From Lewinella cohaerens DSM 23179 (GTDB taxonomy: Bacteria > Bacteroidota > Bacteroidia > Chitinophagales > Saprospiraceae): 64,000 nt of DNA. The notes beneath the pieces were generated by a model, which searched no databases, was not told where the DNA came from, and saw only the letters and a list, made by a program, of their open reading frames with translations. The translations under genes and the position numbers were made by a program. This document shows positions 28,955 to 46,695 of this stretch, piece by piece. The stretch is taken from contig NZ_KB903534.1 in NCBI RefSeq assembly GCF_000379805.1, forward strand, positions 20,043-84,042, read 5' to 3'. The stretch's first letter is position 1, and each line of letters starts with the position of its first letter.

Positions 28955-29140
28955 GATCGTCGGGGTTTTATTTGGATACTAAAACAGTACTAAAAATACA
29001 CCTTGTGAGGGTAAGAGTTGTCGCGCAAGTGCTGCTTTAACGAGGGTTTAACGGTTTGGGGCTGTTACCGTATTCTTGGAAAAGTTAAATTGAGGCTTTT
29101 GTTAACTAACGCGCATCACGATGAAAAATTCACACTCACC

Positions 29141-29296
29141 ACTGATCGACTATTGATGAATAACGATTATCTCCAAGTCTACGGCTCACAATTATTGAAT
29201 GGAGAACTGTACCCCATCGAAAATGCAAAGACGGTTGATCAACGCCGAGACTCTTTGGGTTTGGAGTCGTTGGAGGAGTATTTGGAGTATTTTTAG
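29141..29296 (+). pseudogene. Truncated DUF6624 remnant upstream of the peptide exporter
   Basis: The last ~51 codons of a small ORF (TDRLLMNNDYLQVYGSQLLN, GELYPIEN, VDQRRDSLGLESLEEYLEYF) line up with the C-terminal part of the two full DUF6624 proteins in this window (DRIRLYQGRYQIYGTQVIKD, FPIEDPDQVDARRAKLNFEP and LVEYLNFF in the gene at 33873). The N-terminal TPR-like region and the HGW/QHxxLxxQEKYLP part are missing upstream, and what precedes it in frame is unrelated. I read it as a 5'-deleted third paralogue. A reduced functional protein is possible but less likely. Confidence 0.7.
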
Positions 29297-29413
29297 GGGG
29301 GGGATGTGATGGCGAGATGAATATTAAGATTCAGTGGAAGGGGTTGACAGGAGTAATTATTTTATCTACCTTAAGCCCGAATTTGTTTTGACTCTCTGAA
29401 ACATACGCGCTTA

Positions 29414-31609: not shown

Positions 31610-31804
31610 CGTGAGGTTTGCTTTTGTGTATTCCCAGAGGATACTTTACGCAAGCTAAACCTCACTGTACTAGGTACTTAGTATAGGGTAGAGGGATTTT
31701 GACTACCCCAGATTCGAGATTATACCAAGTACCATGTACGTTGGGGTTTGATGCAACTCAGTTCACTAATAATGAGAACCTTACATTCAAACCTCACGTG
31801 AATT
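31604..31804. mobile_element. MITE-like inverted-repeat element between exporter genes
   Basis: AATTAACGTGAGGTTTG (31604-31620) and its near-perfect reverse complement CAAACCTCACGTGAATT (31788-31804) bound ~200 bases with no ORF. The left arm includes the stop codon of the ABC transporter gene. The element also carries a partial copy of repeat family 2 (GGGTAGAGGGA, ~31685-31695). It could be a non-autonomous mobile element or a long-range RNA structure affecting the downstream HlyD gene. Confidence 0.55.
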
Positions 31805-31827
31805 AATAAACTGAAAAGAATATACTT

Positions 31828-33105
31828 ATGCCACATCATCCAGAACATATTGCGGTCAATGACCTGCTGGGAAAACCACCGGGTTGGCTTTTACGCTCCG
31901 GTATTAGCCTTGTCTTTGTCATTGTTCTTTCGGGCTTGCTGCTTTCCGCATTTATCCATTATCCTGATCGGTTGAATGGACAGGTCGTTATCCAGCGAGA
32001 AAGAACGCCAGTAGCTTTGGTTCCTACTATCAATACCTTTATTGATTCCCTGTTTGTGAAAGATGGAGACGAGGTGAAGAAGGGGGATATCGTGGCAATA
32101 TTGCACAGCGATGCAAATTGGCAGGAAATGATGGCACTTAGCCTGGTTTTGGAAAGCAATTCGGAGGAAGAAGGTTTGGAAGCGTTTACGGAACTGGGAA
32201 CCTTGCAATCGCTCTATGGCCGTTGGATAGCCATCAAGAGAGAATATGCGTATTACGCCAAAAATAACCCCACCGCCCAGAACAAAGAAAATATTCGTCG
32301 GGACATCAAATACAATGGCGATTTGATGCAAACCACCAGGGATGAATTGGATTTGTTGGATCGACAAATAGCATTAGAAAAAAACGATTATGAAAGACAG
32401 CGGGGGCTAGCCAAGGAAGGGGTGATCAGTATCCAGGAGCTGGAAGAAAAAGAAAAACGGTGGTTAGGCTTCCAACAACAAAGAGAAACGCTCCATGCAC
32501 GATTGATCGAATACCAGCTGAGAATTAATAATTTGAATCAGCAAATCGAAAAGCTGGTATTGGACAATAAGGACCGGTTTTTTGAACTAGAACAATCCTA
32601 TCGCCAGCTTACCGAAGAATTGAGCGGCCGGATGCAAGAGTGGAAAGACACCTATTTACTCCGCGCAACAATTGCTGGACAGATCATTTTTTCAGAAGCT
32701 GTTGATACCAAGCAGCAAGTCTCTTCTTCGGCTCCTTTGTTGTATGTAGAACCCACAGGAGCAGATCAGACCACTTTGTTGGCCAAGATTAGTATTCCAG
32801 CCACCGGGCTAGGTAAAATTACCACTGGCGATAGATTAATCATCCAATTAGATGCCTACCCCGAGAAGGAGTATGGTACCATTAGCACACAGGTGGATGA
32901 AATAAGGGCCATGCCTTCCGTCGATAAAGAAGGGGGCGCTACTTACCAGCTTATCGCCGCCCTGCGGGAACCAGTGGAAACGACCTACAAAAAACACCTA
33001 CCACTTAGCCTTCAGATGACGGGCACTGCGACCATCATCACCAAAGACCGAAGTATACTCTCCAGAGTTTTTGAACAACTACTCTCTTTGATTAACCAAA
33101 ATTAA
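31828..33105 (+). CDS. HlyD family periplasmic adaptor (membrane fusion protein)
   Basis: This 425-aa protein links an inner membrane ABC exporter to an outer membrane channel. It has one N-terminal transmembrane helix (SGISLVFVIVLSGLLLSAFI, ~residues 22-41), a lipoyl half-motif (VPTINTFIDSLFVKDGDEVK, KGDIVAILHS), a long coiled coil (~120-275; IALEKNDYERQRGLAKEGVI, NLNQQIEKLVLDNKDRFFEL), the second lipoyl half (LRATIAGQIIFSEAVDTKQQ) and a beta-barrel domain (GDRLIIQLDAYPEKEYGTIS). It follows the C39 transporter in the same orientation and almost certainly works with it. No TolC gene is visible in the window, so the outer membrane component must be elsewhere. Confidence 0.93.
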   Translation: MPHHPEHIAVNDLLGKPPGWLLRSGISLVFVIVLSGLLLSAFIHYPDRLNGQVVIQRERTPVALVPTINTFIDSLFVKDGDEVKKGDIVAILHSDANWQEMMALSLVLESNSEEEGLEAFTELGTLQSLYGRWIAIKREYAYYAKNNPTAQNKENIRRDIKYNGDLMQTTRDELDLLDRQIALEKNDYERQRGLAKEGVISIQELEEKEKRWLGFQQQRETLHARLIEYQLRINNLNQQIEKLVLDNKDRFFELEQSYRQLTEELSGRMQEWKDTYLLRATIAGQIIFSEAVDTKQQVSSSAPLLYVEPTGADQTTLLAKISIPATGLGKITTGDRLIIQLDAYPEKEYGTISTQVDEIRAMPSVDKEGGATYQLIAALREPVETTYKKHLPLSLQMTGTATIITKDRSILSRVFEQLLSLINQN

Positions 33106-33123
33106 CGCGCTTCTCAAAATCAA

Positions 33124-33262
33124 TACAGCACAAAAATAAATTGAGACTTCGTTTTTTAAATAGATGAGTAAGCGGTTCATTTCAAGCGTGTCAGCTATTA
33201 AAAAACCTCAGAGACCTCGAAGAAGCAGCGAAGCTAAGACTCAATTTGTTTTTTGCGCAATA
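33124..33262 (+). repeat. Long-hairpin repeat element, copy 2 (upstream of HTH gene)
   Basis: It starts ATACAGCACAAAAATA and ends TTTTTTGCGCAATA. The centre TAGATGAGTAAGCGGTTCAT with AAGCGTGTCAGCTATT matches copies 1 and 3. The arms pair as AAATTGAGAC/GACTCAATTT (spaced) and TTTTTTAAATAG/CTATTAAAAAA; the right arm carries ~20 extra bases (CTCGAAGAAGCAGCGAAG). It ends 9 bases before the ATG at 33272, the same relation to a start codon as copy 1. Confidence 0.7.
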
Positions 33263-33271
33263 CAAAGGCCT

Positions 33272-33601
33272 ATGACACAGATCGAAAAAATTTACTTACT
33301 GGATCGCCTCCATCACCTCATTCGTAGAAAAGGCACGGGTAACCCCAAAGCATTAGCCGATCGCCTGGACGTTTCGGAACGTACGGTTTATAATTTGATT
33401 GATACCCTCCGGGGATTAGGCACAGAAATCACCTACTGTAAGGACAAGGAGAGTTATTGTTATGAGGAGGAGGTGGTGTTGAATTTTTTGCCGGTTTTTG
33501 ATGGGGATAGGGTGAAGGGGGGAGGTGTTGGTAACTACTTAGCTAAAAAAATATTTAAAAATGTTGATGGGAAATTTTATGCTGCAAGATTGATTCAGTG
33601 A
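33272..33601 (+). CDS. Small helix-turn-helix DNA-binding protein
   Basis: I start the gene at MTQIEKIYLLDRL (109 aa); the frame stays open 36 codons further upstream, but that stretch is the long-hairpin repeat. Residues ~1-60 are an HTH_11/DeoR-like winged helix: LDRLHHLIRRKGTGNPKALA, DRLDVSERTVYNLIDTLRGL and GTEITYCKDKESYCYE. The remaining ~45 residues have no ligand-binding domain. Similar small HTH proteins are found next to Bacteroidota peptide-maturation clusters. Its place between the exporter pair and the first maturation cassette makes it a candidate local regulator, but this is inference. The upstream repeat may control its translation. Confidence 0.8.
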   Translation: MTQIEKIYLLDRLHHLIRRKGTGNPKALADRLDVSERTVYNLIDTLRGLGTEITYCKDKESYCYEEEVVLNFLPVFDGDRVKGGGVGNYLAKKIFKNVDGKFYAARLIQ

Positions 33602-33787
33602 TTGGTAATATTTTTGTATTGTACTGTTTTGGTGATGTACTCTTATACGTAATTAAAACAGAAGTACAAGGGGATGCCGAAAACTGATATTTCCTCAGAC
33701 CTGTGTCAATGAATCCACTGTTGATAAAAAGTGGAAAGAAGTATTACTTTTTTGAAGACGATGCAGGTATGGTGTATTGAGGGGAGA

Positions 33788-33795
33788 TAACTTTG
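33788..33795 (+). promoter_or_regulatory. Candidate -7 box (TAACTTTG) before the first DUF6624 gene
   Basis: A perfect TAnnTTTG word lies 77 bases upstream of the ATG at 33873. No -33 TTG at the canonical distance was found. It could drive the first maturation cassette. Confidence 0.35.
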
Positions 33796-33872
33796 TTTTG
33801 TAAAGAATAGGAGAAATCACCAGCAATAGGGTTGATGAACGCTATTAGGCTTAACAAAAAACAAAGAGGAAT

Positions 33873-34850
33873 ATGCGATATAAATGGATGCTTTTGATTG
33901 TACCTTCTATGGTGTTTATCGTACCATCTTCCTATGCCCAATTGCGGTATGTTTACGGCGAGCCGTTTGATAGTCTTTACAAGCAGGCGGTAGCCGCCGA
34001 AGAAGCCGAAGACTACAGCCTTGCGTTAGCAAGGTATGATGCGGCATTTGGAGCGTTCGGGGATGACTTTCCCACAGCACCTATCTACACATCGGCTTTT
34101 TATGTGGCTTACAATTCCAGTGAATGGGATAAAGCAATATTCTATTTAGGTAAATATACAAACGATTGCATAGTTAATGAAAAGGAGTATAGATTGTTGA
34201 TGGGAGCCGAAAAGTTTACTCCTCTCCGCAACCATCCCCAGTGGCCTGCTATATTGTCGAAAATTGATAGCAAACGTAAGGCGTACGGCGAGGTCTATGA
34301 AGAACTCCTACACATAGGTGCGCGCGACCAAGCATTGCGGCAGATGATGAAGTGCGCGGAGGGAAAACTCAAAGATTCGCTCCAAATTCGCTACTTCTAC
34401 CAACTGATGAACCAAGAAGATAGCCTCAACCTACTGGCTGTGGAGGCCATTATCGAAAAGCACGGCTGGTTGGGCAATTATCAGGTTGGCGAGGATGGCA
34501 ACCGCATACTGATGCAAGTCATTCAGCACAACGATTTGGCTACGCAGGAAAAATACCTCCCTCTGATACGCGCATCTGTGGAGCAGGGACAGACAGATGC
34601 GACGTCACTCGCCTTTTTGGAAGACCGCATCCGACTGTACCAAGGACGCTACCAAATATACGGTACCCAAGTCATCAAGGATGGCGAAATCTACCGGGTA
34701 TTCCCCATCGAAGACCCCGATCAAGTGGATGCCCGCCGTGCCAAGCTCAACTTCGAGCCATTGGTTGAATATTTGAATTTTTTCGACATTAAAATCAATA
34801 GCCCCGATGAGCTACAGTTGGACTACCTGCTGGAGCGGTGGACTGAATAG
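33873..34850 (+). CDS. Exported DUF6624 protein, paralogue 1
   Basis: This 325-aa protein starts with a signal peptide (MRYKWMLLIVPSMVFIVPSS, cut near SYAQ). Residues ~30-130 look like two TPR-type helical hairpins (AVAAEEAEDYSLALARYDAA, NSSEWDKAIFYLGKYTND). The C-terminal ~180 residues match DUF6624: DQALRQMMKC, IIEKHGWLGNYQVGEDGNRI, QVIQHNDLATQEKYLPLIRA, FLEDRIRLYQGRYQIYGTQV, FPIEDPDQVDARRAKLNFEP. DUF6624 has no established function. A paralogue at 42021-43061 sits at the mirror position on the other side of the two maturation cassettes, suggesting a role tied to them, such as processing, immunity or sensing in the periplasm; this is inference. It precedes the first precursor gene by 243 bases. 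Confidence 0.85.
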   Translation: MRYKWMLLIVPSMVFIVPSSYAQLRYVYGEPFDSLYKQAVAAEEAEDYSLALARYDAAFGAFGDDFPTAPIYTSAFYVAYNSSEWDKAIFYLGKYTNDCIVNEKEYRLLMGAEKFTPLRNHPQWPAILSKIDSKRKAYGEVYEELLHIGARDQALRQMMKCAEGKLKDSLQIRYFYQLMNQEDSLNLLAVEAIIEKHGWLGNYQVGEDGNRILMQVIQHNDLATQEKYLPLIRASVEQGQTDATSLAFLEDRIRLYQGRYQIYGTQVIKDGEIYRVFPIEDPDQVDARRAKLNFEPLVEYLNFFDIKINSPDELQLDYLLERWTE

Positions 34851-35093
34851 TATGGTTCTTTGACAATTTGTGTGGTGGGCCTCCCTACGGGTGCTACGTT
34901 CCAAGACTTGCTTCGCTCGGCTGCCTTCTACGTCGGCATCTGGCTTCTCCCTATTTAATCGGAAGAAGCCATCCTTGCACATCACTAGGCCGAGCATTTC
35001 ATCTCTTTTCTCAAAGAACCAATAATATAAAGGCATAGGGAATCGCCGAACCCCTTCAATAAGTAGGCATTACATTTTTAAATCAGTTTATTT

Positions 35094-35261
35094 ATGAAAT
35101 TCGAGAAACTTAATTTGGTTAAGTTTGACTCAGTGGAGTTGAATGAAGAAAGTAAAACGATTGTAAAAGGCGGTACTGATACATACATGGTTTCTGCTAA
35201 AAAGGATGGAGATGGTACCATTAGTGACGCAGGAATAAAACACGATGGTAATGTTAATTAG
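35094..35261 (+). CDS. Double-glycine precursor peptide, cassette 1
   Basis: This 55-codon gene starts at ATGAAATTCGAG. The leader (residues 1-27) begins MKFEKLNLVKF and ends ESKTIVKGG, the amphipathic leader with Gly-Gly cleavage site typical of Bacteroidota natural-product precursors exported by C39 transporters. The predicted core (28-55) has TDTYMVSAKKDGDGTISDAG and then IKHDGNVN: rich in Thr/Ser/Lys donors and Asp acceptors, the residues that ATP-grasp peptide ligases join by ester or amide bonds. No Cys is present. It lies 135 bases before the ATP-grasp gene with a long inverted repeat in between. It is identified by leader pattern and context, not by a database match. Confidence 0.8.
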   Translation: MKFEKLNLVKFDSVELNEESKTIVKGGTDTYMVSAKKDGDGTISDAGIKHDGNVN

Positions 35262-35311
35262 TAGTAGTGCTTACTATTTCTGCTAGTCAGGTACAAGTAC
35301 CCAAACTGAAA

Positions 35312-35390
35312 GGGATTGCACAAAAGAAAACAATCAGCCAATATTGGATATAACTGAAATTGGTTCTTTGTAAGTCTTTTGGGCAATCCC
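35312..35390 (+). promoter_or_regulatory. Long inverted repeat between precursor and ATP-grasp gene, cassette 1
   Basis: GGGATTGCACAAAAGA (35312-35327) pairs with TCTTTTGGGCAATCCC (35375-35390) with one mismatch in 16. It ends 6 bases before the ATG of the ATP-grasp gene and has no U-run after it. It may act as a transcript-stabilising or attenuating structure that lets the precursor be made in excess, and could also mask the ATP-grasp start. Confidence 0.6.
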
Positions 35391-35396
35391 TGAATA

Positions 35397-36437
35397 ATGG
35401 ATATGGGGAAGAAGCGGAATAATTTTTCACAATTTGAAGTTGCCTATGCGATGGTACTAATTCTCAGTATGGAATCTGATGTGTCAACCATCAGTGTGAT
35501 AGACTGGTTGGACTATTTGGGTAGTCGGTGGAAACGCGTAAATGGGGAGGATATTGATGAAACAAAGGATGAACTGTTTCTGAAAATAGCAAACGATGAG
35601 TTTTCTTTTTGTACGCTATTGGAGGGAGTAGACCACCACCAAGTAACGGCCGTTTGGGATCGAAGATTTCATGGCCTTAACCGGATTAGGCACTGGATAT
35701 ATTCTGATACATCAGACATCGGTATTAATAATGCTCGGCTGGAGAAGTTATTGATTGCCGAGGTGGGCAAAGTACATGCCTATACGTATGCTTTTTTCAG
35801 TGATTGCTTCTGGTTGGATACTCCAGGAGCAACAAATGTTAATAAATTGAGCGTTTTGGATTGCGCCAGTAAAGTTGGATTGAAGATACCAAGGACAGTT
35901 GTAACCAATAAAAAAGATAGTCTGATAGCCGCTTTCTCGGGTTGCGAAATAATCACCAAACACATTAGTGAAGCACATGGGCTGTTTTTTGATGCTACGC
36001 TTTTTATGAACTATACGGCTGTGGTCACAAAAGAGTTTGTTGATACGCTTCCTGAAACGTTCTTCCCATCACTGTTCCAAGAAAAAATAGAAAAAAAATA
36101 TGAAATACGTGCCTTCTATCTGATGGGGATAATCTATGCGATGGCTATTTTCTCACAATCGTCAGAACAAACCAAGGTTGATTTTCGCCAGTATGATTTT
36201 TCGAATAGCAACCGAATGGTGCCTTTCGAGTTGCCGCTGTCTATACAAGCGAAAATCAATGACCTTATGGAAAGGCTAAATCTAAAACACGGTTCCATCG
36301 ATTTGATAAAATCGGTGAATGATGAGTATGTATTTCTTGAGGTCAATCCTGTTGGTCAGTTTGGAATGGTCTCTTATCCTTGCAACTACTACCTTGAAGA
36401 AAAGGTAGCTCAAACATTGTCAGAATATGGAAAATAA
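35397..36437 (+). CDS. gwsG: ATP-grasp peptide maturase (grasp-with-spasm type), cassette 1
   Basis: This 346-aa enzyme belongs to the ATP-grasp peptide ligases that activate Asp/Glu side chains as acyl-phosphates and join them to Ser/Thr/Lys in a precursor (graspetides). Visible parts: an N-terminal pre-ATP-grasp region (~1-150); VNKLSVLDCASKVGLKIPRT (residues ~148-167), the usual entry to the ATP-grasp domain; Lys188 in EIITKHI for phosphate binding; the hinge PSLFQEKIEKKYEIRAFYLM; and the metal-binding C-terminus KHGSIDLIKS (Asp302) plus FLEVNPVGQFGM (Glu315, Asn317). The next small gene overlaps its 3' end by 11 bases, so translation is coupled. The paralogue at 39941-40906 shares the same ending, but the two are clearly diverged. 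Confidence 0.9.
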   Translation: MDMGKKRNNFSQFEVAYAMVLILSMESDVSTISVIDWLDYLGSRWKRVNGEDIDETKDELFLKIANDEFSFCTLLEGVDHHQVTAVWDRRFHGLNRIRHWIYSDTSDIGINNARLEKLLIAEVGKVHAYTYAFFSDCFWLDTPGATNVNKLSVLDCASKVGLKIPRTVVTNKKDSLIAAFSGCEIITKHISEAHGLFFDATLFMNYTAVVTKEFVDTLPETFFPSLFQEKIEKKYEIRAFYLMGIIYAMAIFSQSSEQTKVDFRQYDFSNSNRMVPFELPLSIQAKINDLMERLNLKHGSIDLIKSVNDEYVFLEVNPVGQFGMVSYPCNYYLEEKVAQTLSEYGK

Positions 36438-36621
36438 CACGGCTCCAACATTAAAAGAGGCACTCATGTCGAAGGGAATCAAACCTCATTTCCCAGTTGG
36501 CTTTGGTTTGTCGGAGGGTAAGCCATCTTTACCTGCTGAATACAATTTAGTCAAATTGCCCTACTACAAAGCCTTTCTTGACCATAGCCTTCCCTATCAT
36601 AAACCCATCACTAAGATTTAG
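36427..36621 (+). CDS. Small conserved-position protein between ATP-grasp and SPASM genes, cassette 1
   Basis: This 64-aa protein starts MENNTAPTLKEALMSKGIKP and ends HKPITKI. It overlaps the ATP-grasp gene by 11 bases and ends 6 bases before the SPASM gene, which marks it as a genuine operon member. It has no signal peptide, membrane segment or Gly-Gly site. The middle (PVGFGLSEGKPSLPAEYNLV) is glycine- and proline-rich. I do not recognise the family. It could be a partner subunit, a leader-binding accessory or a second substrate without a leader. The 77-aa gene at 39663-39896 takes the same place in cassette 2, but the two share at most a KPI-x-x-I ending. Confidence 0.7.
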   Translation: MENNTAPTLKEALMSKGIKPHFPVGFGLSEGKPSLPAEYNLVKLPYYKAFLDHSLPYHKPITKI

Positions 36622-36627
36622 ACAGAC

Positions 36628-37734
36628 ATGAATATGGGCAACCTGAATGATGATTGCTTGATGCTCTTCCAATGCTGTATGCTTGTGAAGGGACATTCCC
36701 GCGCATTAATTTGTGATGTTCAGAGGGGACAATTGTATTTCATTCCGAATACACTCTACTTTATCCTCACGAGCTATGACGACTTTAGTATAAACGAAAT
36801 CAAGGACAGCTTTGATGAGGTGTATCATGAATATATTGACGAATACTTTGCATTTTTAGTAGAAAATGAACTTGCAATTCGATTACCAAAGGAAGAAAAG
36901 AAGATGTTTCCTAAAATATCTACAGAATGGCGAACGCCTCTACCTTTGACGAATGCGGTGATTGACATCGGGAAACAATTTGATAAAGGCCTAGTTTCGA
37001 AAGGAATACAACAACTGAGTGCATTAAAATGCTATGCGATACAGATTCGCTTTTTTGATGAAACCGATTTGGCAAATATCCAATATGTCTTGGATTTGTG
37101 TGCAGAAACCTCTATACGGGCACTAAGTATACTCATAAAAGACAGCCCTGGCCTATCGAACGACATCCTCACTGAATGGACTGACAAATATCAAAAGGTA
37201 CAAGATATTACGTTACATACGTTACTCAATCGTAGCAAATATAGCCCGAATCAAACCATTTTACTAAATGAACGCTCGGTTACATCAAGTTTATGTTGTG
37301 GGAATATTACGCAAGCTTATTTTACCACAAGCATAGATCTCTTCACCGAATCCCTCCACCACAACACTTGTCTCAACCGCAAGATAGCGATAGACGTGGA
37401 CGGCAATATCAAAAACTGCCCCTCAATGGCGGAATCCTTCGGTAACATACGGGAAACTACACTGGATGAAGCACTGTTAAAGCCTGGCTTTAAGAAATAT
37501 TGGGATATTACCAAAGATAAAATCCACGTCTGCAAAGATTGTGAATTTCGGCATATCTGTACGGATTGCCGTGCGTACGTCGAAGACCCCGAGGATATAT
37601 TCAGTAAACCGCTTAAATGTGGATACAACCCTTACACTGGGGATTGGTCAGAATGGAGTACCAACCCCCTGAAACAAAAAAACATAGACCACTATGGCCT
37701 CCGGGAAATAGTAGATATAGCGGGGGAGATGTAA
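36628..37734 (+). CDS. gwsS: SPASM-domain peptide maturase (grasp-with-spasm type), cassette 1, full cysteine set
   Basis: This 368-aa protein has an N-terminal PqqD-like recognition region (~1-85; LICDVQRGQLYFIPNTLYFI), a middle alpha/beta region (~100-235) like a degraded radical-SAM barrel, and a C-terminal SPASM domain. All seven SPASM cysteines are present: C248-x10-G-x4-C264, C302-x2-C305-x5-C311-x2-C314 and C331 before GYNPYTGDW. By analogy with anSMEcpe, C248, C264 and C314 would hold auxiliary cluster I and C302, C305, C311 and C331 cluster II. No CxxxCxxC SAM-cluster motif exists anywhere; VIDIG sits where it would be. It probably assists the ATP-grasp enzyme by binding precursor or an iron-sulfur cluster rather than by radical chemistry. 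Confidence 0.88.
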   Translation: MNMGNLNDDCLMLFQCCMLVKGHSRALICDVQRGQLYFIPNTLYFILTSYDDFSINEIKDSFDEVYHEYIDEYFAFLVENELAIRLPKEEKKMFPKISTEWRTPLPLTNAVIDIGKQFDKGLVSKGIQQLSALKCYAIQIRFFDETDLANIQYVLDLCAETSIRALSILIKDSPGLSNDILTEWTDKYQKVQDITLHTLLNRSKYSPNQTILLNERSVTSSLCCGNITQAYFTTSIDLFTESLHHNTCLNRKIAIDVDGNIKNCPSMAESFGNIRETTLDEALLKPGFKKYWDITKDKIHVCKDCEFRHICTDCRAYVEDPEDIFSKPLKCGYNPYTGDWSEWSTNPLKQKNIDHYGLREIVDIAGEM

Positions 37735-37814
37735 ACGTCCGATCAGCCCAGTTGTGCATAATTTTTTTGCTAGTTGTTAATGAGGAGAAGGTGAACATCA
37801 TCCATCATAAATGA

Positions 37815-38834
37815 TCACCATTTATTTGTGTAGGGATTGAACGAGCATTGTTTATTCTTCCTGTATCCGCCTTCCGATTTGATGATTTCTGTATTGTCGA
37901 CACACATATACCTGTATTGACAATCTTTACATACAAGGATGATATCATTGTGTAGAAACCAACACTTTTGAAAAGAAGAGGTTGAAATTACATCTTTAAT
38001 TGATTCACTACAAACATTACCATGAAAAGTCTCATGTGATAAATAATTTTTTATAAACCCATTTCTATCAATTGAAACTTTTCTGTTTAGACCTATATTA
38101 TGCTGTTGACTTTCCAGGAAAGTATCTAGAGAAAGAAAAAAGTTTTCAGCACTAACCACATCATGAGTTGAACATGTAATCTTTTGCGGTATAAAGAAAC
38201 CTCGAGTGGAACTTTGATCGTAATACTTTGACAAATCTTCTTGTTCTGGCGCTTCAAAAATATGCAATCGTGCAATTCTTTTACACGTAGATGTGAAATC
38301 AATTATCTGAGTACTGCTTACATCTTTGTAATAAGGAATAAACACTTCAAATCCTTTAATGCAACTACTATCGAAATTGTCCAGAATTTTTTTAAGCTCC
38401 TCAATATGAGTAAAACTAAGAAAGCGAAGTTGTATAAATTGACAATTCAAGCCTTCTAGCTGTCTTAATACATCTAAAAGATCGTAAGGTGATGATTCAT
38501 CTACCTCAATTACTGCGTTTTGAATGCGTAGAGGAGAATGCCAAGACATGTTTATTTCGGGGAAAAACTGAGGATTGTCTGTAAAAAAACCTATCTCTTC
38601 ATCTACAAAGAACTGAAAATAGGCATCAATACCTCTATCATATTGATTTAAGAACATTTTTTTCAGTTCACCAATGCTAAGAACATTTTTTTTATTTTCA
38701 TTAATAATTTCAAAAAGTAAAGGGTCAATGACATGGTAAAGCCCTCTATCTGTGTCATAGATTAAGCACTCAACACTTCCTTTAACAGGAATGCAAGAGG
38801 CAAATAATTTAAAATATAACGCGTCATTTAGCAT
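37815..38834 (-). CDS. gwsS: SPASM-domain peptide maturase, cassette 2, missing auxiliary cluster I ligands
   Basis: This 339-aa paralogue of the protein encoded at 36628-37734 shows near position-for-position alignment (HNxxLNRKxxIDxxGxIKN; VCKDCxYRxxC; FNPYTxxW). In place of C248, C264 and C314 it has Gly248, Tyr264 and Asn314. C302, C305, C311 and the last cysteine (C330) are kept. The three lost residues are those expected to bind auxiliary iron-sulfur cluster I; the four kept match cluster II. Like its partner it lacks CxxxCxxC. It ends 80 bases from the stop of the convergent paralogue, and its start overlaps the upstream lipoprotein gene by 11 bases. The frame is intact and tight, so it is probably functional though altered. 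Confidence 0.85.
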   Translation of the reverse strand: MLNDALYFKLFASCIPVKGSVECLIYDTDRGLYHVIDPLLFEIINENKKNVLSIGELKKMFLNQYDRGIDAYFQFFVDEEIGFFTDNPQFFPEINMSWHSPLRIQNAVIEVDESSPYDLLDVLRQLEGLNCQFIQLRFLSFTHIEELKKILDNFDSSCIKGFEVFIPYYKDVSSTQIIDFTSTCKRIARLHIFEAPEQEDLSKYYDQSSTRGFFIPQKITCSTHDVVSAENFFLSLDTFLESQQHNIGLNRKVSIDRNGFIKNYLSHETFHGNVCSESIKDVISTSSFQKCWFLHNDIILVCKDCQYRYMCVDNTEIIKSEGGYRKNKQCSFNPYTNKW

Positions 38835-39666
38835 CTTCTACAGCAATTAAATTCATAGTGAAACGGGAACTATCAATGTTGACGTAGTCTAACTTAACAA
38901 AACCGTAAGTTTCGTTAAAATAGGAAGTTAAACTACTGGTACCAAGCGAACTTTCTCCCTTAGCGAACACAACATGACAATCCAATATTCCTAGAAAGCC
39001 TGTGTCAACCTTAATCTGACCGAGAATTTCATAAGAGTGAGATATATCAACAGTTCCTTTCCATATAGCCCATTCTTTATCACTCCACTGGTCTCCTACT
39101 TTAAAAGACCAATTCCATTTTCGTCCTACCTTACAAGGCATTTTAATGTATGGGTAGGGATTTATCTGAAGATAATGGAAATACCTTGGCCTACGCCAGG
39201 GGTGCATCCATATGTTTTTCGCGTTTTCAACTACTCCCGAAAATTCAATAGGATAAGACAGGCTGTCTCCGATCAAATAGTACTTATAAAAAAGCTCTGT
39301 TTGTTTGTAGTCCGGAAAGTATTCAATAAATGTAGCCTCTTCTTGAGCTGTTACAGAGATTTTCGTAATAGTTTTTGTAGTTAGTTTGTCAACTGGCGTT
39401 AATGAATAACCTTCCCGAGAAATTTTATATTCTTCATTATCGGTATTGAAAAAAGAGCAACTATAAATATACTCTCTTCCTGGAATATAGATGCGATTAT
39501 CATCATTATATGAATTGTGTTTGGAAGTGGGTAAGGAATCGACTATTTCAATTTCCATACCATCTTCATCTGTAAAATATTCTGCACCACTGTTAATGCT
39601 TTGACAAGAGAATATCAGAGTTAAGACAAATACATTTAAAAAAATAGCAAGAGTTGAATTTTTCAT
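38824..39666 (-). CDS. Lipoprotein embedded in maturation cassette 2
   Basis: The signal peptide with lipobox LIFSC (Cys 21) shows a lipoprotein. The mature 260 residues are beta-rich with many aromatic residues: NRIYIPGREYIYSCSFFNTD, WMHPWRRPRYFHYLQINPYP and KWNWSFKVGDQWSDKEWAIW. I do not recognise the family. It overlaps the SPASM gene downstream by 11 bases and the 77-aa gene upstream by 4, so it is translated as part of the cassette. Cassette 1 has no counterpart at this position. A role in self-protection or in handling the exported peptide at the outer membrane would fit, but that is inference from context only. Confidence 0.8.
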   Translation of the reverse strand: MKNSTLAIFLNVFVLTLIFSCQSINSGAEYFTDEDGMEIEIVDSLPTSKHNSYNDDNRIYIPGREYIYSCSFFNTDNEEYKISREGYSLTPVDKLTTKTITKISVTAQEEATFIEYFPDYKQTELFYKYYLIGDSLSYPIEFSGVVENAKNIWMHPWRRPRYFHYLQINPYPYIKMPCKVGRKWNWSFKVGDQWSDKEWAIWKGTVDISHSYEILGQIKVDTGFLGILDCHVVFAKGESSLGTSSLTSYFNETYGFVKLDYVNIDSSRFTMNLIAVEDAK

Positions 39667-39896
39667 TTTTTAACAATATTTGCAATTGGTTTAGCTAGGA
39701 AACCAACCTGATAGCTAGAGGAGTGGTGAAGGTCACTTTTTCCAATCCTTTTAGAAGACTTAAAAACATCTACTTTTCTAGTCAATTGCATACATATTGG
39801 TAGCTGACTTGTTGGTCTACTAAATAATAAAAGCACTTCTTTTATGTTTTCTGAATCAGTAATATTTTTACTGTTTTTTTTAGACTGTTTTATCAT
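39663..39896 (-). CDS. Small protein at the ATP-grasp/SPASM junction, cassette 2
   Basis: This 77-aa basic protein (MIKQSKKNSKNITDSENIKE at the start, AKPIANIVKK at the end) lies between the ATP-grasp gene (44 bases upstream) and the lipoprotein gene (4-base overlap). No signal peptide or membrane helix is seen, and only one Cys. It takes the same relative place as the 64-aa protein of cassette 1, and both end in a KPI-x-x-I-like sequence, but similarity is too weak to claim homology. Function not recognised. The tight overlap supports it being real. Confidence 0.6.
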   Translation of the reverse strand: MIKQSKKNSKNITDSENIKEVLLLFSRPTSQLPICMQLTRKVDVFKSSKRIGKSDLHHSSSYQVGFLAKPIANIVKK

Positions 39897-39940
39897 TTCT
39901 TAATTATTAATTTTAAAAGTGTTTTTTTAACGATTTAAAA

Positions 39941-40906
39941 CTATATCCCCTTCGCTAATTTATCTGCAATAACCTTGTCAAGGTTGTAATTGCAGGGATG
40001 GGAGGTCATTCCGTATTGCCCGACTGGATTAATCTCAAGGAAGATGAATTTTTTATTCTTGCTGTAAATTAAATCTATAGAGCCGCAGTTGAGGTCAATT
40101 TCTTGCATTAGTGTTTTAATTTTTTCTTCCACATCACGTGGAAGCTGAAATGGAATATTTCGATTCCGCCTTTTAGTGTTGTATCTTCTGAAGTCTATAT
40201 TCGTTTGAGAATCTAGTTGTGAAAATATTGCCATTGAATAGCATTCTCCATCCAAATAAAAAGTTCTTATTTCAATTTCTTTTTCTATCAGTTCTTGAAA
40301 ACAAGATAATGCAAACTCTTCAGGGAAATCATCTATGTGCTCACGGGTAATTTCCTCCGTATAACCCATGTGCGGTATATTATCAATATTAAAGCCGATC
40401 CCTTCATAAGAGGGTTTGGTGACAATCCTCTTTTTTTTCATCAAAAAACGCAGAACCTCCTTTTTCTTTTCCGTAACTAAAGTGCTGGGGATTGTAAAGC
40501 CACATTTTGTTGCTAATATCAAAGTTTCTAATTTGTTGATATTGTGAACCTTAGGGTTGCCTATGCAGAAGCAGTTATTTCTTATCATAGATATTATTCC
40601 ACTACGAGCAGATTCTATTTCCTTATGGAAATACCTATTGAAACGATCTTGATCACCCAGGTTTACTTGCCCCCTAGCCTCCGAAAATGAAATTTTAGGC
40701 AAAGATTGAGGTAACCGACGAAACCATACCTGGCCGATATTTAAAGAACTATCTTCTTCTTTACTCGAATTGATAGACATTGTAAATGAATTCCATGACT
40801 TATTAATATCACCATTTATTCTTGTATAAGGATGACAGTTTAAATAAAGCCAGTCAATTACGTTGTTAGTAGAATTATCGGAATTTGATGAAAAAATTGT
40901 AATCAT
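39941..40906 (-). CDS. gwsG: ATP-grasp peptide maturase (grasp-with-spasm type), cassette 2
   Basis: This 321-aa protein is homologous to the cassette 1 ATP-grasp enzyme. Shared parts: an N-terminal SNNVIDWLYLN-like start (VIDWL also in the partner), HNINKLETLILATKCGFTIP (~residues 121-140), Lys164 in RIVTKPSYEGIGFN, FQELIEKEIEIRTFYLDGEC, MAIFSQLDSQTNIDFRRYN and the metal site GSIDLIYS plus FLEINPVGQYGMTSHPCNYN. All ATP-grasp catalytic residues appear intact. It probably forms side-chain ester or amide links in one or both of the precursors encoded immediately upstream. The 195-base gap to those precursors holds a hairpin. The local DNA is visibly AT-richer than flanking genes. Confidence 0.9.
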   Translation of the reverse strand: MITIFSSNSDNSTNNVIDWLYLNCHPYTRINGDINKSWNSFTMSINSSKEEDSSLNIGQVWFRRLPQSLPKISFSEARGQVNLGDQDRFNRYFHKEIESARSGIISMIRNNCFCIGNPKVHNINKLETLILATKCGFTIPSTLVTEKKKEVLRFLMKKKRIVTKPSYEGIGFNIDNIPHMGYTEEITREHIDDFPEEFALSCFQELIEKEIEIRTFYLDGECYSMAIFSQLDSQTNIDFRRYNTKRRNRNIPFQLPRDVEEKIKTLMQEIDLNCGSIDLIYSKNKKFIFLEINPVGQYGMTSHPCNYNLDKVIADKLAKGI

Positions 40907-41038
40907 TGACTGTTTACAAGTTAAGAAAGGCCTTAAGCCTTAATTTTTTTAAAAAAATATTTAAACACTCATCAATATTCAATCTTGTCCATGAATCAGT
41001 ATCTTCAATGAATAGCGTTGAGCAGTAATAATGACTAT

Positions 41039-41076
41039 GTAGCCTCTCTTGTTATTTGATTAACTAAAGAGGCTAC
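41039..41076 (-). promoter_or_regulatory. Hairpin between precursors and ATP-grasp gene, cassette 2
   Basis: GTAGCCTCT (41039-41047) pairs perfectly with AGAGGCTAC (41068-41076) around a 20-base loop, 26 bases after the last precursor stop. This is the same place as the 35312-35390 inverted repeat of cassette 1, with unrelated sequence. It likely protects or limits read-through of the precursor mRNA. Confidence 0.6.
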
Positions 41077-41101
41077 TGCAATAGTTGGCGTAAATAATTC
41101 T

Positions 41102-41293
41102 CTATGCAACTACAGGGGTATCTGGAGCAGAGTAGTCGGAGGTTGCTATAACCTCTGAGCCGTTATCTGTTGTATAATGAGTTCCATCATCACAACGTTC
41201 AAGATAATAACTTGACTCTCCTCCCTTGGTGTTGAAAACTTCATTGGGGGTGATTTTCGCTGCATTAAATTTTTTTAATAATACATCTTTCAT
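41102..41293 (-). CDS. Double-glycine precursor peptide 2a, cassette 2
   Basis: This 63-aa peptide has a leader of 25 residues (MKDVLLKKFNAAKITPNEVF, then NTKGG) and a 38-residue core with ESSYYLERCDDGTHYTTDNG, SEVIATSDYSAP and a DTPVVA end. The core has many Ser/Thr next to Asp/Glu, as expected for a graspetide substrate, and one Cys. The pattern D-x-x-G...I...[TS]-x-D-Y is shared with precursor 2b. The order 2b-2a-ATP-grasp and the TKGG site support substrate status. Confidence 0.82.
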   Translation of the reverse strand: MKDVLLKKFNAAKITPNEVFNTKGGESSYYLERCDDGTHYTTDNGSEVIATSDYSAPDTPVVA

Positions 41294-41336
41294 TGTATAG
41301 GTTTTTTATTGTTAAAAATGTTAAAAGATAAGCCTT

Positions 41337-41531
41337 TTAGTCATTGGAGGAGCCATAATCCTCGGTATGAGAAATTGTTTCCCCATCTCTATCTATCCAA
41401 TGTTGTGTACAACCATCATCATCAAAGGTTCCACCTTTGGTATGGCATCCACCAAAAGTAGAACTTACCAGAATGGTGTCAAGTTTCTTCCCCTCAAACT
41501 GTTTAAACAGTTTGTCATTAGAATTTTTCAT
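41337..41531 (-). CDS. Double-glycine precursor peptide 2b, cassette 2
   Basis: This 64-aa peptide starts MKNSNDKLFKQFEGKKLDTI, a common leader type in Bacteroidota peptide cassettes. Two GG sites are present: G27-G28 (STFGG) and G33-G34 (HTKGG). The second aligns with the NTKGG of precursor 2a and is the more likely cleavage point, leaving a 30-residue core: TFDDDGCTQHWIDRDGETIS then HTEDYGSSND. Asp/Glu and Thr/Ser alternate, with one core Cys and one leader Cys. It is the first gene of the cassette after the small lipoprotein, 43 bases before precursor 2a. Confidence 0.82.
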   Translation of the reverse strand: MKNSNDKLFKQFEGKKLDTILVSSTFGGCHTKGGTFDDDGCTQHWIDRDGETISHTEDYGSSND

Positions 41532-41621
41532 GAAAATTAATTTTATCGATTTAGAAGACTAATTATTGTGACTAAAACAACAGATGCTTTTCACAATACT
41601 ACATTTCAAATATACTCCCTA

Positions 41622-42008
41622 CTACTGCACCATTCTTTCAGTTGCCATAAATTGATGGTTTTTATAAACATACCTGTAAAAGCCCTGCTCGGCCAGATAC
41701 CTTACGTCAAAGATTTTAGTGCAGGCTGATGAATCATGTTTCACCGCTTTTCTGAGATTATCATAAATTGCTTCAGAGGGAGATTGAAGCGTCGCCAGAT
41801 AAAAAGATATTGAAAAATAATTTTTTGCTTCGTAAGCTTCTACAAGCTTTTTTCGACGAGTTTCATATTGATCTTCCCTGATCGACTCCTGTCTTTCTGG
41901 AATAAATGGTTCTGTCTGTTCACGGCAACTTTGAAAAAGGGTAAATAATAAGAAGCATAGCGCTATGAGGTGGGAAATAGCCTTGGTAGTGGTGTTATTT
42001 TGATGCAT
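41622..42008 (-). CDS. Small lipoprotein next to the second DUF6624 gene
   Basis: This 128-aa protein has a signal peptide ending at lipobox TLFQSC. The mature part is helical (RRKKLVEAYEAKNYFSISFY, LATLQSPSEAIYDNLRKAVK) and resembles the N-terminal TPR-like region of the DUF6624 proteins (compare AKNYFSISFYLATLQ with SEWDKAIFYLGKY), but it ends before any DUF6624 domain. It begins 12 bases after the stop of the DUF6624 gene and is likely co-transcribed with it. A derived partial duplicate of the DUF6624 N-terminus is a reasonable guess; function unknown. Confidence 0.7.
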   Translation of the reverse strand: MHQNNTTTKAISHLIALCFLLFTLFQSCREQTEPFIPERQESIREDQYETRRKKLVEAYEAKNYFSISFYLATLQSPSEAIYDNLRKAVKHDSSACTKIFDVRYLAEQGFYRYVYKNHQFMATERMVQ

Positions 42009-42020
42009 AAAAGTAAGGTG

Positions 42021-43061
42021 TTAATTGTTATTCTTCTTCTTCCGCCTCTCCCACCAATCCTCCAGCACCCGCTCATCATCCAAGTCTGCGGGCGAAGTAA
42101 TCTCAATATCAAAAAAGGCAGCGTATTCTTTGATGGGCTCGAAACCGACACTCGCTCTGATGCTGTCAATGTTGAGAGGGTCTTCGACGGGGTAAACGGC
42201 AGACTTGCCCGTTACCGGATGTTTGGCAATTTGGGTGCCGTAACGCTGCCTTTGGCCTCTTCTCATCAGCACGCGATCTTGAAGGAAGGCGTAACTGGAC
42301 ATTCTGCTTTCCCCCTTTTCGGCAGATGCTCGGAGGAGCGGCAAGTATTTTTCCTGCACTTCAAGCGGGGAATGCTGAACCACCTGCCAGAGTGCCCGAT
42401 TTGCCGGTTCTCCTATTTTGTTGATGGCCAGCCAGCCGTGCTGGTCTAGTACAGATGCGACATAGATGAGGTTAAAACTATCCTGCATTTCCATCAGGTC
42501 GTAGTAAGCATTCAACTGGAGCGAATCATCCGCAAATTTTTCGCGGGCGCAGCTGAGGAGTTGCCTTAGGGTTTGGTCTTTGACCTTAATTTGATGTAAG
42601 GTGTCGGCTATCCCGCTGTACTTTTCTCTTCTTGCGTAGTTGGTGTCCATTATTTCCCGAAAGCGTTTGTGCTGCCGGAGGAACTCATATTCCGGATCGT
42701 TTTCTAAGCTCTCCAAAATTTTCTGGGGTTGCCAGCGCAGTAGTAAGGCTCTTTCGAGATAAAAAATAGAGCGTTCCTGGTTGCCCGCTTCGGTCCAATA
42801 GGAAAAACCATACGTATAAAAACCACTATCAGGAAACTGCCCTCCCTTCATTTTCAGTGCTTGATCGCACCGCTCACCTGCGGCGGCATATTGCCCCAAG
42901 TCAAATAAACTATCGGCCTGGTGGAACAGGTAATGAAATTCCTTGCCATGAGAATTTTGGGCAATCGTTGAATTGGGGAGTATCCCAAATAGAATAAGCG
43001 CACTCGCACAAAGAGCGATTTTTGTTGAGTTAGTAGAGAGCATAGTAAAATATTTGGACAC
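42021..43061 (-). CDS. Exported DUF6624 protein, paralogue 2
   Basis: This 346-aa protein begins with a hydrophobic signal (STKIALCASALILFGILPNS, cut near IAQN). A TPR-like N-terminal half (ADSLFDLGQYAAAGERCDQA, NQERSIFYLERALLLRWQPQ) is followed by a DUF6624 domain: KVKDQTLRQLLSCAREKF, VLDQHGWLAINKIGEPANRA, QVVQHSPLEVQEKYLPLLRA, AFLQDRVLMRRGQRQRYGTQ and VYPVEDPLNIDSIRASVGFE. Overall it is clearly homologous to the 33873-34850 protein, including the HGW...QEKYLPL...YGTQ core. It lies at the outer end of cassette 2, mirroring its paralogue at cassette 1. The function of DUF6624 is not established; the repeated neighbourhood is the best clue. Confidence 0.85.
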   Translation of the reverse strand: MSKYFTMLSTNSTKIALCASALILFGILPNSTIAQNSHGKEFHYLFHQADSLFDLGQYAAAGERCDQALKMKGGQFPDSGFYTYGFSYWTEAGNQERSIFYLERALLLRWQPQKILESLENDPEYEFLRQHKRFREIMDTNYARREKYSGIADTLHQIKVKDQTLRQLLSCAREKFADDSLQLNAYYDLMEMQDSFNLIYVASVLDQHGWLAINKIGEPANRALWQVVQHSPLEVQEKYLPLLRASAEKGESRMSSYAFLQDRVLMRRGQRQRYGTQIAKHPVTGKSAVYPVEDPLNIDSIRASVGFEPIKEYAAFFDIEITSPADLDDERVLEDWWERRKKKNNN

Positions 43062-43428: not shown

Positions 43429-46400
43429 TTACTCCATTTTCACAGCTTCCATCTCCCTAAAGAGCTTCACTGTAATGGCTTGCACTTTGGTGCGGTAATC
43501 GACAAAGTCTTCCGTTACCAACTTGTTTACGCTTTCCAGAACTTCGGCTGTGTGTTGGCGGGCTTTCTCCATCGTGAAACCTACCATCTGGCTCGGTTCG
43601 CCGTTGATGTCGCCAATGTAACGGCGTACGCCCCAGAGGCTGTTCATTAAAGTATTGGGGTCGCGCTTAATGCCTTTTACGTCTTCGGGCTCCATGAAGA
43701 GCTCTTCTACTTGGGCGATGCTGTCGCGCAGGGCTTTGCCCCATTTTTTGACTTCTTGCTGGGTAGAATCTGGAGCGTGTACGAGGGCTTGCTCTACCAG
43801 TTTCATGTCTTTTTGCATTTCTTGCAGGCGGTTGAAAGCTTCGGTAGCAGCCGTTACAATTTTTTCCAGTTCGGCATTGGCAGCATCACGATTGGCCCAG
43901 GTGCTGGCAGCATATTCAATGCGTGGGTCAGCGTGTACGTTTACCGTGGTCTCACCACTTTCTTCGCCATAGGTCATCAGTAGCGTGTAGGTGCCGGGGG
44001 CAACACTCGCGCCGGTTGGAGGGTCTGCATCGGGCCTGCGCTCGCGGCGACTCGGGAATGAAAAACCATCACCGCGCAGGTTCCAGGTGAAGCGGTTAAA
44101 CCCTGGCTCCACTTTCCTCGTAAAGGTGCGAATGGTATCACCAGCACTGTCGATAACCTGAATTTTCACCTTGTCGCTGCCACCTTTTTTCTTGCGTTTA
44201 GGTTGTCCTTCCGCTTCTTCGTCCCCTTCTTCCTGATCTTTCATCTCCTCTTTGGGAGCTTCTTCTGCTTTTTTGTCTTTAGGTTTTACCCATACCGTGA
44301 GCAGCGCGCCACGTGGGCGATCCTCTCCCACAAATTCAGCATCTGCAATAAAGCGAATTCCCTGATAGCTACGGCGTTCTGCCAAGTAGGCATCAGGAGA
44401 AGGGAAAGTGGCGAATGGTTTTTCCAAAATGGCACCTTCCGTGCGAGCGGCTTCCCTCATCGGGCGCAAATCGTCCAAAATCCAGGCGGCGCGGCCAAAA
44501 GTGCCGATAATCAAATCTTGCTCACGCGGGTGGATTTTCATATCCGCCACCGGCACACCGGGGAATCCTTCTGTCCACTTGGTCCAGTTTTTACCATAGT
44601 CGATACTGAAGTACAGGCCGTGGTCGGTGCCCAGCCATAGGTGACCAGGTTCCTGAGGGTCTTGCACTATGCTGAGGGTGTATCCGCTCACATCATCGGC
44701 GTCTACTATTCGGTCCCAATTTTGGCCGTAGCTGCGGGTGTGGTACACCATTGGCTCAAAATTATTACGGCGGTAATCATTCACCACCACAAAAGCTTCG
44801 CCCTGGTTTTTTTGCGATACTTCAATGTAAGGAATCCAGCTTCCGGCTGGCGCACCTGGTAGTTTGGCTGCAAGGTTGGTCCACGAATCACCACCGTCAT
44901 GCGTCAGTTGCAGGTTGCCATCATCGGTGCCTACCCACAGGGTTTGCGCGTCAAAAGGGTCAGGAGCAATGGCCAGAATAGTGGTATAGTTTTCGGCTTG
45001 CGTGGCATCATAGGTCAGTCCACCACTGATATCGGCCTTTTGCTTCTCGGGGTCATTGGTCGTTAGGTCTGGGCTTATGATAGTCCAGTTTTGGCCACAG
45101 TCTGTACTTTTATGTACGTATTGGCTACCAAAGTAGATGGTGTTTTCTTCGTGTGGGTCTTGCGCCATGGCAGCATTCCAGTTGAAGCGTAACCGTTCTC
45201 CCTTTGGGTGAACAGGTTTAATGAAGGTTGTCGCGCCAGTCTTGCGGTCTACCAAGCCTACGTTACCACCTTGGCTCATAGCATATACGTAGCGGTTGTC
45301 GCTAGGCTTGAAAAACAGGTCAAAACCATCGCCGAAAAATACTTCTTGCCAATCGTGGTTAGTAATTCCTCCACTCTTCCAGGCTTGGCTGGGGCCTACC
45401 CACGAGCCATTGTCCTGCATACCACCGCCCACATTGTAGGGGATGTCCATGTCGTGATTGATATGGTAAAACTGTGCTGCCGGGATATTGGTCACAAAAC
45501 GCCAGGTCTTGCCCCGGTCGCGGCTTATGTTTAGACCACCATCGTTGCCCTCAATCAAGTAGTTGGGGTCATTGGGGTGTACCCAAAAAGCATGGTGATC
45601 GGGGTGAACGTTGGTACCATAATCCAGAATCACCTTAAAGGTTTTACCTCCATCTTCACTCAAGCTTACATAGGTGTAGAGGTTGTAGATCCGGTTTTCG
45701 TTGATGGGGTCTACGTATAGTTCAGCATAGTAAAACGGCCGGTTGCCGATGTTCTTTTCGCTGACGAGGTTCCATTTTTTGCCGCCATCAGTACTTTTGT
45801 ACAAACCGTTTACTTTGGCTTCCACCAGTGCGTAAATGATGTTCGGTTCGCTAGGTGCAATCGCCAAACCAATGCGGCCAAGGTCACCTTTAGGAAGGCC
45901 GTCTTCGGCAGTGCGTTGCACCCAGGTGTCGCCACCATCGTAGGTCATGTACAGACCAGATTGTGGGCCGCCAGAGTTGAAGTACCAAGGGTCGCGGTCA
46001 AATTCCCACATAGCAGCCAGCAGTTTGTCCGGGTTGGTAGGGTCCACCACCAGGTCGGCGATACCTACACCGTCGGCTACTTTGAGTACATGCTCCCAGG
46101 TGTTGCCACCATCTTCGGTACGAAAGACGCCCCGCTCGGGGTTAGGCCCCCAAATGGAGCCCATGGCCCCTACGTATACGATGTCGGGATTGTCACGATG
46201 GACGATGATGCGGTGAATGTTTCGTGTGTTCTCCAGGCCTACGAGTTCCCAGGTGTCGCCACCATCGCGGCTGCGGTAGAGGCCCTGCCCGGTATTGTGG
46301 CTATTTCTTGGGTTCCCTTCACCGGTGCCTACCCATATTTCGTCGGGATTGCGCTGGTTGATCTTGATAGCGCCAATGGCTTGTAGTGGTTGCTTGTCGA

Positions 46401-46674: not shown

Positions 46675-46695
46675 ACTAGTGTAGATAAAAGACAT

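Follow-up and report, generated by a model that had tools for sequence, protein, structure and literature searches.

Two convergent grasp-with-spasm cassettes in Lewinella cohaerens encode SPASM proteins without a radical-SAM motif and with different predicted cluster ligands

Introduction

Can a SPASM protein without a radical-SAM site take part in peptide maturation, and do two such systems standing side by side form one unit? These questions are raised by two gene cassettes of Lewinella cohaerens DSM 23179, which face each other at positions 33873-43061 of a 64,000-nt stretch of contig NZ_KB903534.1 (hereafter the window, from whose start all coordinates are counted). On either side of ~37.77 kb the genes follow the order DUF6624 protein, precursor(s), ATP-grasp protein, small protein and SPASM protein, arranged tail to tail, and the two SPASM genes end 80 bases apart (37734 on the forward and 37815 on the reverse strand). 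An initial annotation of this DNA had described the same order and spacing, both of which are borne out by the open reading frames (ORFs) of the window, and had read the locus as two diverged peptide-maturase cassettes in near mirror image that may share a single exporter. Beyond that annotation, we found that a radical-SAM motif is missing from both SPASM proteins, that their cluster ligands differ, and that the mirror symmetry is composite.

Results

Both ATP-grasps and both SPASM proteins exceed the NCBIfam cut-offs for TIGR04192 (230 bits) and TIGR04193 (175 bits), respectively (Table 1), in agreement with the proposed role in peptide maturation. In the whole genome (7.3 Mb, 89 contigs), TIGR04193 (searched to E 1) and TIGR04192 (searched to E 1e-5) each identify two loci, all of them in the window. 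A profile of 18 ATP-grasps, including both from the window, matched the solved ligases 5ig9 (2.7e-56), AMdnB (7m4s) and CdnC (7mgv), which we take to be microviridin-type and chryseoviridin ligases. An alignment of the ATP-grasps revealed that both window proteins retain the DFR motif (VDFRQY and IDFRRY), which is named for graspetide synthetases in PMC13097080. Most homologues of the cassette 1 ATP-grasp start near its residue 19 (about 35451). A SPASM homologue was present in 78 of the 80 named loci chosen by ATP-grasp alone, the exceptions being L100 and L115 (3.6-kb contig); these loci are the 80 top-ranking ones among at least 558 matches to the window ATP-grasp alignment and do not represent a census. 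Between the two cassettes, identity is 38% for the ATP-grasps, 30% for the SPASM proteins and 38% for the DUF6624 proteins, and the earlier description of the enzymes as homologous but well diverged therefore holds. The longest inverted repeat in the locus has 45 nt (76% identity) and is located within both DUF6624 genes. A fresh inverted duplication is rejected in view of the low protein identity (30-38%), the shortness of this repeat and the unlike guanine-plus-cytosine (GC) content of the cassettes.

For comparative analysis of the SPASM proteins, 119 regions were used (the window, 20 from relatives, the 80 named loci and 18 via a search of the phylum). They contained 132 homologous SPASM ORFs, of which 117 with at least 240 aligned residues were kept and 15 were dropped, including L105 (343 aa), which is of the one-cluster kind (see below) by eye. 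The CxxxCxxC motif was absent from the first 220 residues of all 117 proteins, and none of 80 homologues scanned matched Pfam Radical_SAM at E 0.01, whereas 41 of the same 80 matched Pfam SPASM. PMC8939145 places this family among the SPASM radical SAM enzymes and puts forward thioethers as products. Judged by these motif and profile searches, the radical SAM label is unsupported for the family, and the SPASM proteins of the window are not radical-SAM enzymes.

The cysteines of the cassette 1 protein, SPASM 1, are spaced C224-x23-C248-x15-C264-x37-C302-x2-C305-x5-C311-x2-C314-x16-C331. This order and spacing resemble the motif of the heme synthase AhbD, CX20-33CX17CX36-37CX2CX5CX2CX17-35C, for which the ligands of auxiliary clusters I and II (AuxI and AuxII) are assigned in PMC10452713. 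Mapped through AhbD, the AuxI ligands of SPASM 1 would be residues 224, 248, 264 and 314, and the AuxII ligands residues 302, 305, 311 and 331. SPASM 1 (CCCC/CCCC) thus carries the seven to eight ligand cysteines expected for two auxiliary clusters. SPASM 2 of cassette 2 (HGYN/CCCC) falls short of this number, having all four AuxI cysteines replaced by His, Gly, Tyr and Asn and all four AuxII cysteines kept; a protein from another genus, in locus L027, has a similar pattern (PGYN/CCCC). By their ligands, the SPASM proteins appear to fall into classes, with a putative two-cluster protein in cassette 1 and a putative one-cluster protein in cassette 2.

This division extends to the homologues. 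Among 111 proteins selected for a complete AuxII set (110 unique, as L051 and L158 are the same contig), four AuxI cysteines were found in 78, three in none, two in 1, one in 3 and none in 29, whereas 28.8, 46.2, 27.8, 7.4 and 0.7 proteins (four to none) would be expected if the four columns varied independently and relatedness is ignored. A MAFFT alignment of 80 SPASM proteins has only five invariant columns, the four AuxII cysteines and one glycine. Six of the 117 homologues have no complete AuxII set; five of them end early or are split (L037, L038, L039, L119 and L114) and one, L163, is full length, so AuxII is kept in 111 of the 112 homologues with an intact C-terminus. Loss of AuxI has a precedent in a radical-SAM family, since AhbDs with AuxII ligands only are noted in PMC10452713.

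The AlphaFold model of SPASM 1 (80-row alignment; predicted local distance difference test (pLDDT) score 95, predicted template modelling score 0.91) has three parts: an RRE-like part (residues 8-97), a degenerate radical-SAM barrel (about 103-290) and a SPASM domain. In the model, residues 8-97 have a PqqD-like winged-helix (RRE) fold, an assignment made at fold level and for SPASM 1 only, and superpose on the N-terminus of the heterocyclase TruD (4bs9; Z 8.2, root-mean-square deviation 2.8, 86 aligned residues); MccB also matches. The matched parts of TruD and MccB are presumably RRE or RRE-like domains. From about residue 103, SPASM 1 matches BtrN, PqqE, CteB, TigE and SuiB (Z 11.3-12.7), which we take to be radical-SAM enzymes, and the matches to CteB (Foldseek E 1.2e-7) and TigE span nearly the whole protein including its RRE-like part. 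The first barrel strand and the following helix of the model are only five residues apart.

The small proteins encoded before the SPASM genes had been annotated as tiny and unrecognised; they are present on both sides, but both fit the LPL family, which is described for this graspetide branch in PMC8939145. This assignment is based on our own LPL profile (not the published one), built from 79 proteins of other loci with the window left out, which placed the two window proteins first (E 2.1e-9) and second (8.1e-4) among the 254 ORFs of the window. In 91 of 109 ATP-grasp/SPASM pairs, the two genes are separated by a small ORF. Gly-Gly leaders fit all three window precursors by eye, and the cassette 1 precursor has no Cys. 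No clear signal connects SPASM class with Cys in the precursor core (70 of 117 candidates for the two-cluster and 20 of 28 for the one-cluster class, from a crude list of Gly-Gly candidates that includes chance ORFs). The family of the 280-aa lipoprotein of cassette 2 was found by phmmer in five other grasp-with-spasm regions (L049, L032 (twice), L081, L117 and L075).

The window, L027, L056, L118 and L153 each combine both SPASM classes in one locus, and L084 and L125 each hold two two-cluster proteins. Mixed-class pairs therefore make up five of the seven loci that hold two typed cassettes, against 39% expected from the class frequencies (tail 0.088), an excess over chance that is suggestive only. 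L114 was excluded from this count because its second SPASM gene is apparently split, with a DUF6624-like ORF between the halves (8169-10220). In many other loci the one-cluster class occurs without the two-cluster class, next to an ATP-grasp of its own, and is thus not merely a decaying companion. In addition, L040 (9525-10397) and L041 (8776-9213; G098) contain one-cluster SPASM-like genes with no ATP-grasp match in the 19 kb around each. In the free SPASM tree the one-cluster proteins cluster, yet in more than one place, and the approximately unbiased test did not reject a single one-cluster clade (p 0.57, with the constrained tree scoring higher). On this result we dropped repeated independent AuxI loss as a claim, and no number of losses is proposed.

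Comparison with a sister species (G002) indicates how the locus was assembled. By blastn, window positions 28496-29125 and 29135-29301 match its contig L208 at 6943-7573 and 8232-8398 (81% identity), and 41660-43055 match 10139-11528 (90%). No blastn match in L208 was found for the window between these flanks (29302-41659), and none in the window for the L208 segment standing in its place (about 8399-10138), placing the borders at about 29301 and 41660. The sister species has no TIGR04193 match at 1e-10, yet has the same flanks. At the left border lies a remnant of a DUF6624 lipoprotein gene (29018-29296), whose intact counterpart in L208 (7569-8402) encodes 277 aa. At the right border a resident lipoprotein gene is truncated to 128 aa; its L208 counterpart (9645-10487) is intact with 280 aa, and the C-terminus of the latter is weakly like DUF6624 (16.2 bits, under the cut-off). 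The right-hand DUF6624 gene is resident, because the sister locus, which has no cassette, contains it intact and with 91.8% identity over 342 aa. We infer from this comparison that the cassettes and exporter form an island within a DUF6624 array and that, in the lineage of the window, a resident gene was cut at the right border.

GC content is 44.2% for the exporter, 40.4% for cassette 1, 33.3% for cassette 2 and 45.6% for the right resident genes, and the difference between the cassettes suggests separate origins. The mirror image consequently does not stand as one unit, since the right outer DUF6624 gene and the small lipoprotein gene are resident and the cassettes differ in GC. Likewise, of the two lipoproteins initially assigned to cassette 2, the 280-aa protein is retained, but the 128-aa one is a truncated resident gene.

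The model of DUF6624 protein 1 (pLDDT 90) shows TPR matches at about residues 26-143 followed by the DUF6624 domain. The DUF6624 fold had no PDB match at Foldseek E 0.001, which provides no evidence for a new fold. His and Arg are nearly invariant in DUF6624. Conserved His and Arg also mark 'cluster 23', which is lipoprotein-like and, according to PMC8939145, occurs in nearly every locus of this branch; we suspect that the two are the same. A same-strand DUF6624-like gene lies within 2.5 kb of 51 of 122 ATP-grasp genes. Our DUF6624 profile is wider than that of Pfam (30 of 60 members reach E 0.001). A third DUF6624 gene of the genome, detected at an E threshold of 1e-5 (L167:5986-6990, contig G000:C34), has no TIGR04192 match at its locus and adjoins genes for a BlaR1/M56-type membrane protease-like protein and a BlaI-type regulator-like protein.

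The genome encodes three C39-peptidase proteins. Besides the window protein, these are ABC exporters on contigs G000:C89 (L210) and G000:C9 (L211), which share 45% and 55% identity with it. Relatives of the HTH_11 regulator were found by phmmer in nine of 118 other regions, two of them on the same contig. TIGR04193 matched 16 of 100 relatives and none of the three genus mates searched at 1e-10, 15 of the 395 genomes of a phylum sample at 1e-15, and 113 of 148 genomes in one distant genus at 1e-10. The cassettes of L047, L057 and L062, whose contigs come from metagenome bins and bear the titles Thermoanaerobaculum and Gemmatimonadetes, lie outside Bacteroidota, through either transfer or binning error. 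Beyond the right flank, the gene at 43429-46695 belongs to a large paralogue family with 13 matches at E 1e-50 or better in the genome (some of them gene pieces), whose best copies are 77-93% identical in three genus mates.

Table 1. Features of the locus (window coordinates) and the evidence for each assignment
Feature	Position	Strand	Evidence
DUF6624 lipoprotein gene remnant, internally deleted, C-terminal part kept	29018-29296	+	PF20329 28 bits
Island, absent from sister species G002	29302-41659		blastn of window vs L208
C39-peptidase ABC exporter	29414-31609	+	TIGR03796 E 1.9e-135, under equivalog cut-off; PF03412
HlyD-family adaptor	31828-33105	+	TIGR01843 E 1.2e-21, under cut-off
HTH_11 regulator	33164-33601	+	PF08279 30.4 bits
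DUF6624 protein 1	33873-34850	+	PF20329 71 bits; N-terminal export signal by eye
Cassette 1 precursor, Gly-Gly leader	35094-35261	+	TIGR04149 14.6 bits, under cut-off 25; position and Gly-Gly
Cassette 1 ATP-grasp graspetide synthetase	35397-36437	+	TIGR04192 301.8 bits; DFR intact
Cassette 1 LPL-type small protein	36427-36621	+	rank 2 of 254 window ORFs, LPL profile
Cassette 1 SPASM protein, two-cluster class	36628-37734	+	TIGR04193 339.2 bits; 8 ligand Cys
Cassette 2 SPASM protein, one-cluster class	37815-38834	-	TIGR04193 225.5 bits; HGYN/CCCC
280-aa lipoprotein, cassette 2	38824-39666	-	lipobox by eye; between LPL and SPASM
Cassette 2 LPL-type small protein	39663-39896	-	rank 1 of 254 window ORFs, LPL profile
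Cassette 2 ATP-grasp graspetide synthetase	39941-40906	-	TIGR04192 291.0 bits; DFR intact
Cassette 2 precursor a, Gly-Gly leader	41102-41293	-	position and Gly-Gly; no NCBIfam match
Cassette 2 precursor b, Gly-Gly leader	41337-41531	-	position and Gly-Gly; no NCBIfam match
Truncated N-terminus of resident lipoprotein gene (128 aa)	41622-42008	-	91.4% over 116 aa, L208:9645-10487
DUF6624 protein 2, TPR-like and DUF6624, resident	42021-43061	-	PF20329 55 bits; sister copy 91.8%

Discussion

We consider it reasonably probable that the locus carries two graspetide branches with one exporter and one non-radical SPASM partner per ATP-grasp ligase, on an island standing where part of a resident DUF6624 array used to be, and that it probably yields two ring-locked secreted peptides. 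Two branches served by one exporter, as proposed in the initial annotation, remain the best reading; 'single exporter' is correct for the locus but not for the genome. Each ATP-grasp would act on its own Gly-Gly precursor(s), linking Ser/Thr/Lys with Asp/Glu side chains. The SPASM partner, of the two-cluster class in cassette 1 and the one-cluster class in cassette 2, would be a catalytically dead radical-SAM relative whose RRE-like N-domain binds the leader, and its barrel and SPASM part, together with the LPL protein, may hold the core or stabilise or guide the synthetase, in the manner of MirC for rosaritide. In that system the ligase MirB, co-expressed with the precursor, yields no product unless MirC is present, and the N-domain of MirC is weakly RRE-like (PMC13097080). 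Our guess is that the clusters hold the peptide site, either structurally or in a redox-dependent way. The C39-ABC/HlyD exporter of the window would cut the leaders at Gly-Gly and secrete both products.

A broader and more tentative proposal, which we put somewhat below even chances, is that a dead radical-SAM/SPASM protein with an RRE-like domain became the leader-binding partner of graspetide synthetases. It would exist in stable two-cluster and AuxII-only forms (with neither cluster in one relative), the clusters holding or redox-switching the peptide site, and paired cassettes would combine both main forms for different substrates. A SPASM protein that has no radical-SAM site and carries AuxII ligands alone would set the question of the cluster apart from radical chemistry. 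If our reading of the locus is true, ATP-grasp ligases of this group would require a partner protein, which would guide the expression of their products.

Several observations weigh against our main reading of the locus. The RRE match of SPASM 1 is hardly better than what the comparison tool returns when a model has no clear match, and no assay of a SPASM partner from this group was found in the literature examined. The SPASM homologue of L163 (9411-10403, G195), encoded next to an ATP-grasp and a C39 ABC gene, is full length yet lacks the AuxI as well as the AuxII cysteines, and no cluster is therefore indispensable. The SPASM classes are more scattered on the ATP-grasp tree than on the SPASM tree, with 14 changes on the former (shuffled mean 24.8, minimum 19), for which partner exchange would account, as would noise. 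The correlation of SPASM and ATP-grasp distances falls from r 0.375 for all pairs to 0.063 without close SPASM pairs, so that tight co-evolution is not demonstrated. The cassette 1 precursor scores below the TIGR04149 cut-off, and the cassette 2 precursors match no NCBIfam model. The evidence for shared export is the position of the exporter, and two other C39 exporters are encoded in the genome. Finally, PMC13097080 gives DUF6624 for graspetide groups 18, 20, 23 and 42, the SPASM group 14 not being named.

Three other explanations were considered. The cassettes, instead of being separate branches, might work in series or crosswise on precursors that they have in common, and their position side by side with one exporter, as well as the recurrence of two-class pairs, would fit such a scheme. 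We regard it as unlikely: in each cassette the precursor(s) adjoin the cassette's own ATP-grasp, and the SPASM classes also occur alone. Still less credence is given to cassette 2 as a decaying copy in which the SPASM protein lost its cluster cysteines as unneeded. The loss is near all-or-none and removes exactly the AuxI quartet, with the AuxII quartet kept in the 29 class members (for which it was preselected), and L163 is the one protein without an AuxII set among the 112 homologues whose C-terminus is intact. One-cluster proteins moreover stand alone with their own ATP-grasp, and ATP-grasp 2, LPL 2 and both cassette 2 precursors have open frames. Decay would nevertheless be consistent with the loss of four of the eight ligands, the low GC content and the absence of both ligand sets from L163.

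Least probable of all, in our judgement, is the view that the SPASM proteins are radical-SAM maturases adding a second modification, for example a thioether, to the grasp-modified peptide. It follows the naming and thioether proposal of PMC8939145 and can draw on the radical-SAM-like barrel and on the frequency of Cys in precursor-like cores. Against it stand the absence of CxxxCxxC and Radical_SAM matches throughout the homologues searched, the short connection from the first strand of the modelled barrel to the helix that follows it, and a cassette 1 precursor that contains no Cys. The two-branch reading with non-radical SPASM partners thus remains the one we favour.

The overall system is already known, namely as SPASM-associated graspetides. 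Our searches of an open-licence literature library revealed no one-cluster graspetide SPASM protein nor, for this family, the combination of an RRE-like domain with a dead radical-SAM enzyme, the split into ligand classes or the composite nature of the island. CteB, TigE, SuiB, PqqE and BtrN resemble the window SPASM proteins in combining a radical-SAM-type barrel with a SPASM or Twitch domain, and differ in the radical-SAM motif, which is absent from the window proteins. The closest known system is grasp-with-spasm (TIGR04192 and TIGR04193), described as graspetide group 14 in PMC13097080 and, as we infer, as 'branch 5' in PMC8939145. It shares with the window the ATP-grasp, the SPASM protein, an LPL protein immediately before the latter, Gly-Gly precursors and a C39 exporter. 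In contrast, the window contains two convergent cassettes of unlike SPASM class, the second without AuxI ligands and with a lipoprotein between LPL and SPASM. AhbD heme synthases share the ligand order, and most non-methanogenic archaeal sequences likewise miss the AuxI cysteines and keep AuxII (PMC10452713), but AhbD has a radical-SAM site and the window proteins do not. MirC, too, is encoded next to a graspetide synthetase, is a partner rather than a ligase and has an N-domain with weak resemblance to an RRE; it differs in its SurA-like C-domain, where the window proteins have a radical-SAM/SPASM derivative. The requirement for MirC was demonstrated experimentally (PMC13097080), whereas the corresponding role of the window SPASM partners is proposed by analogy with it.

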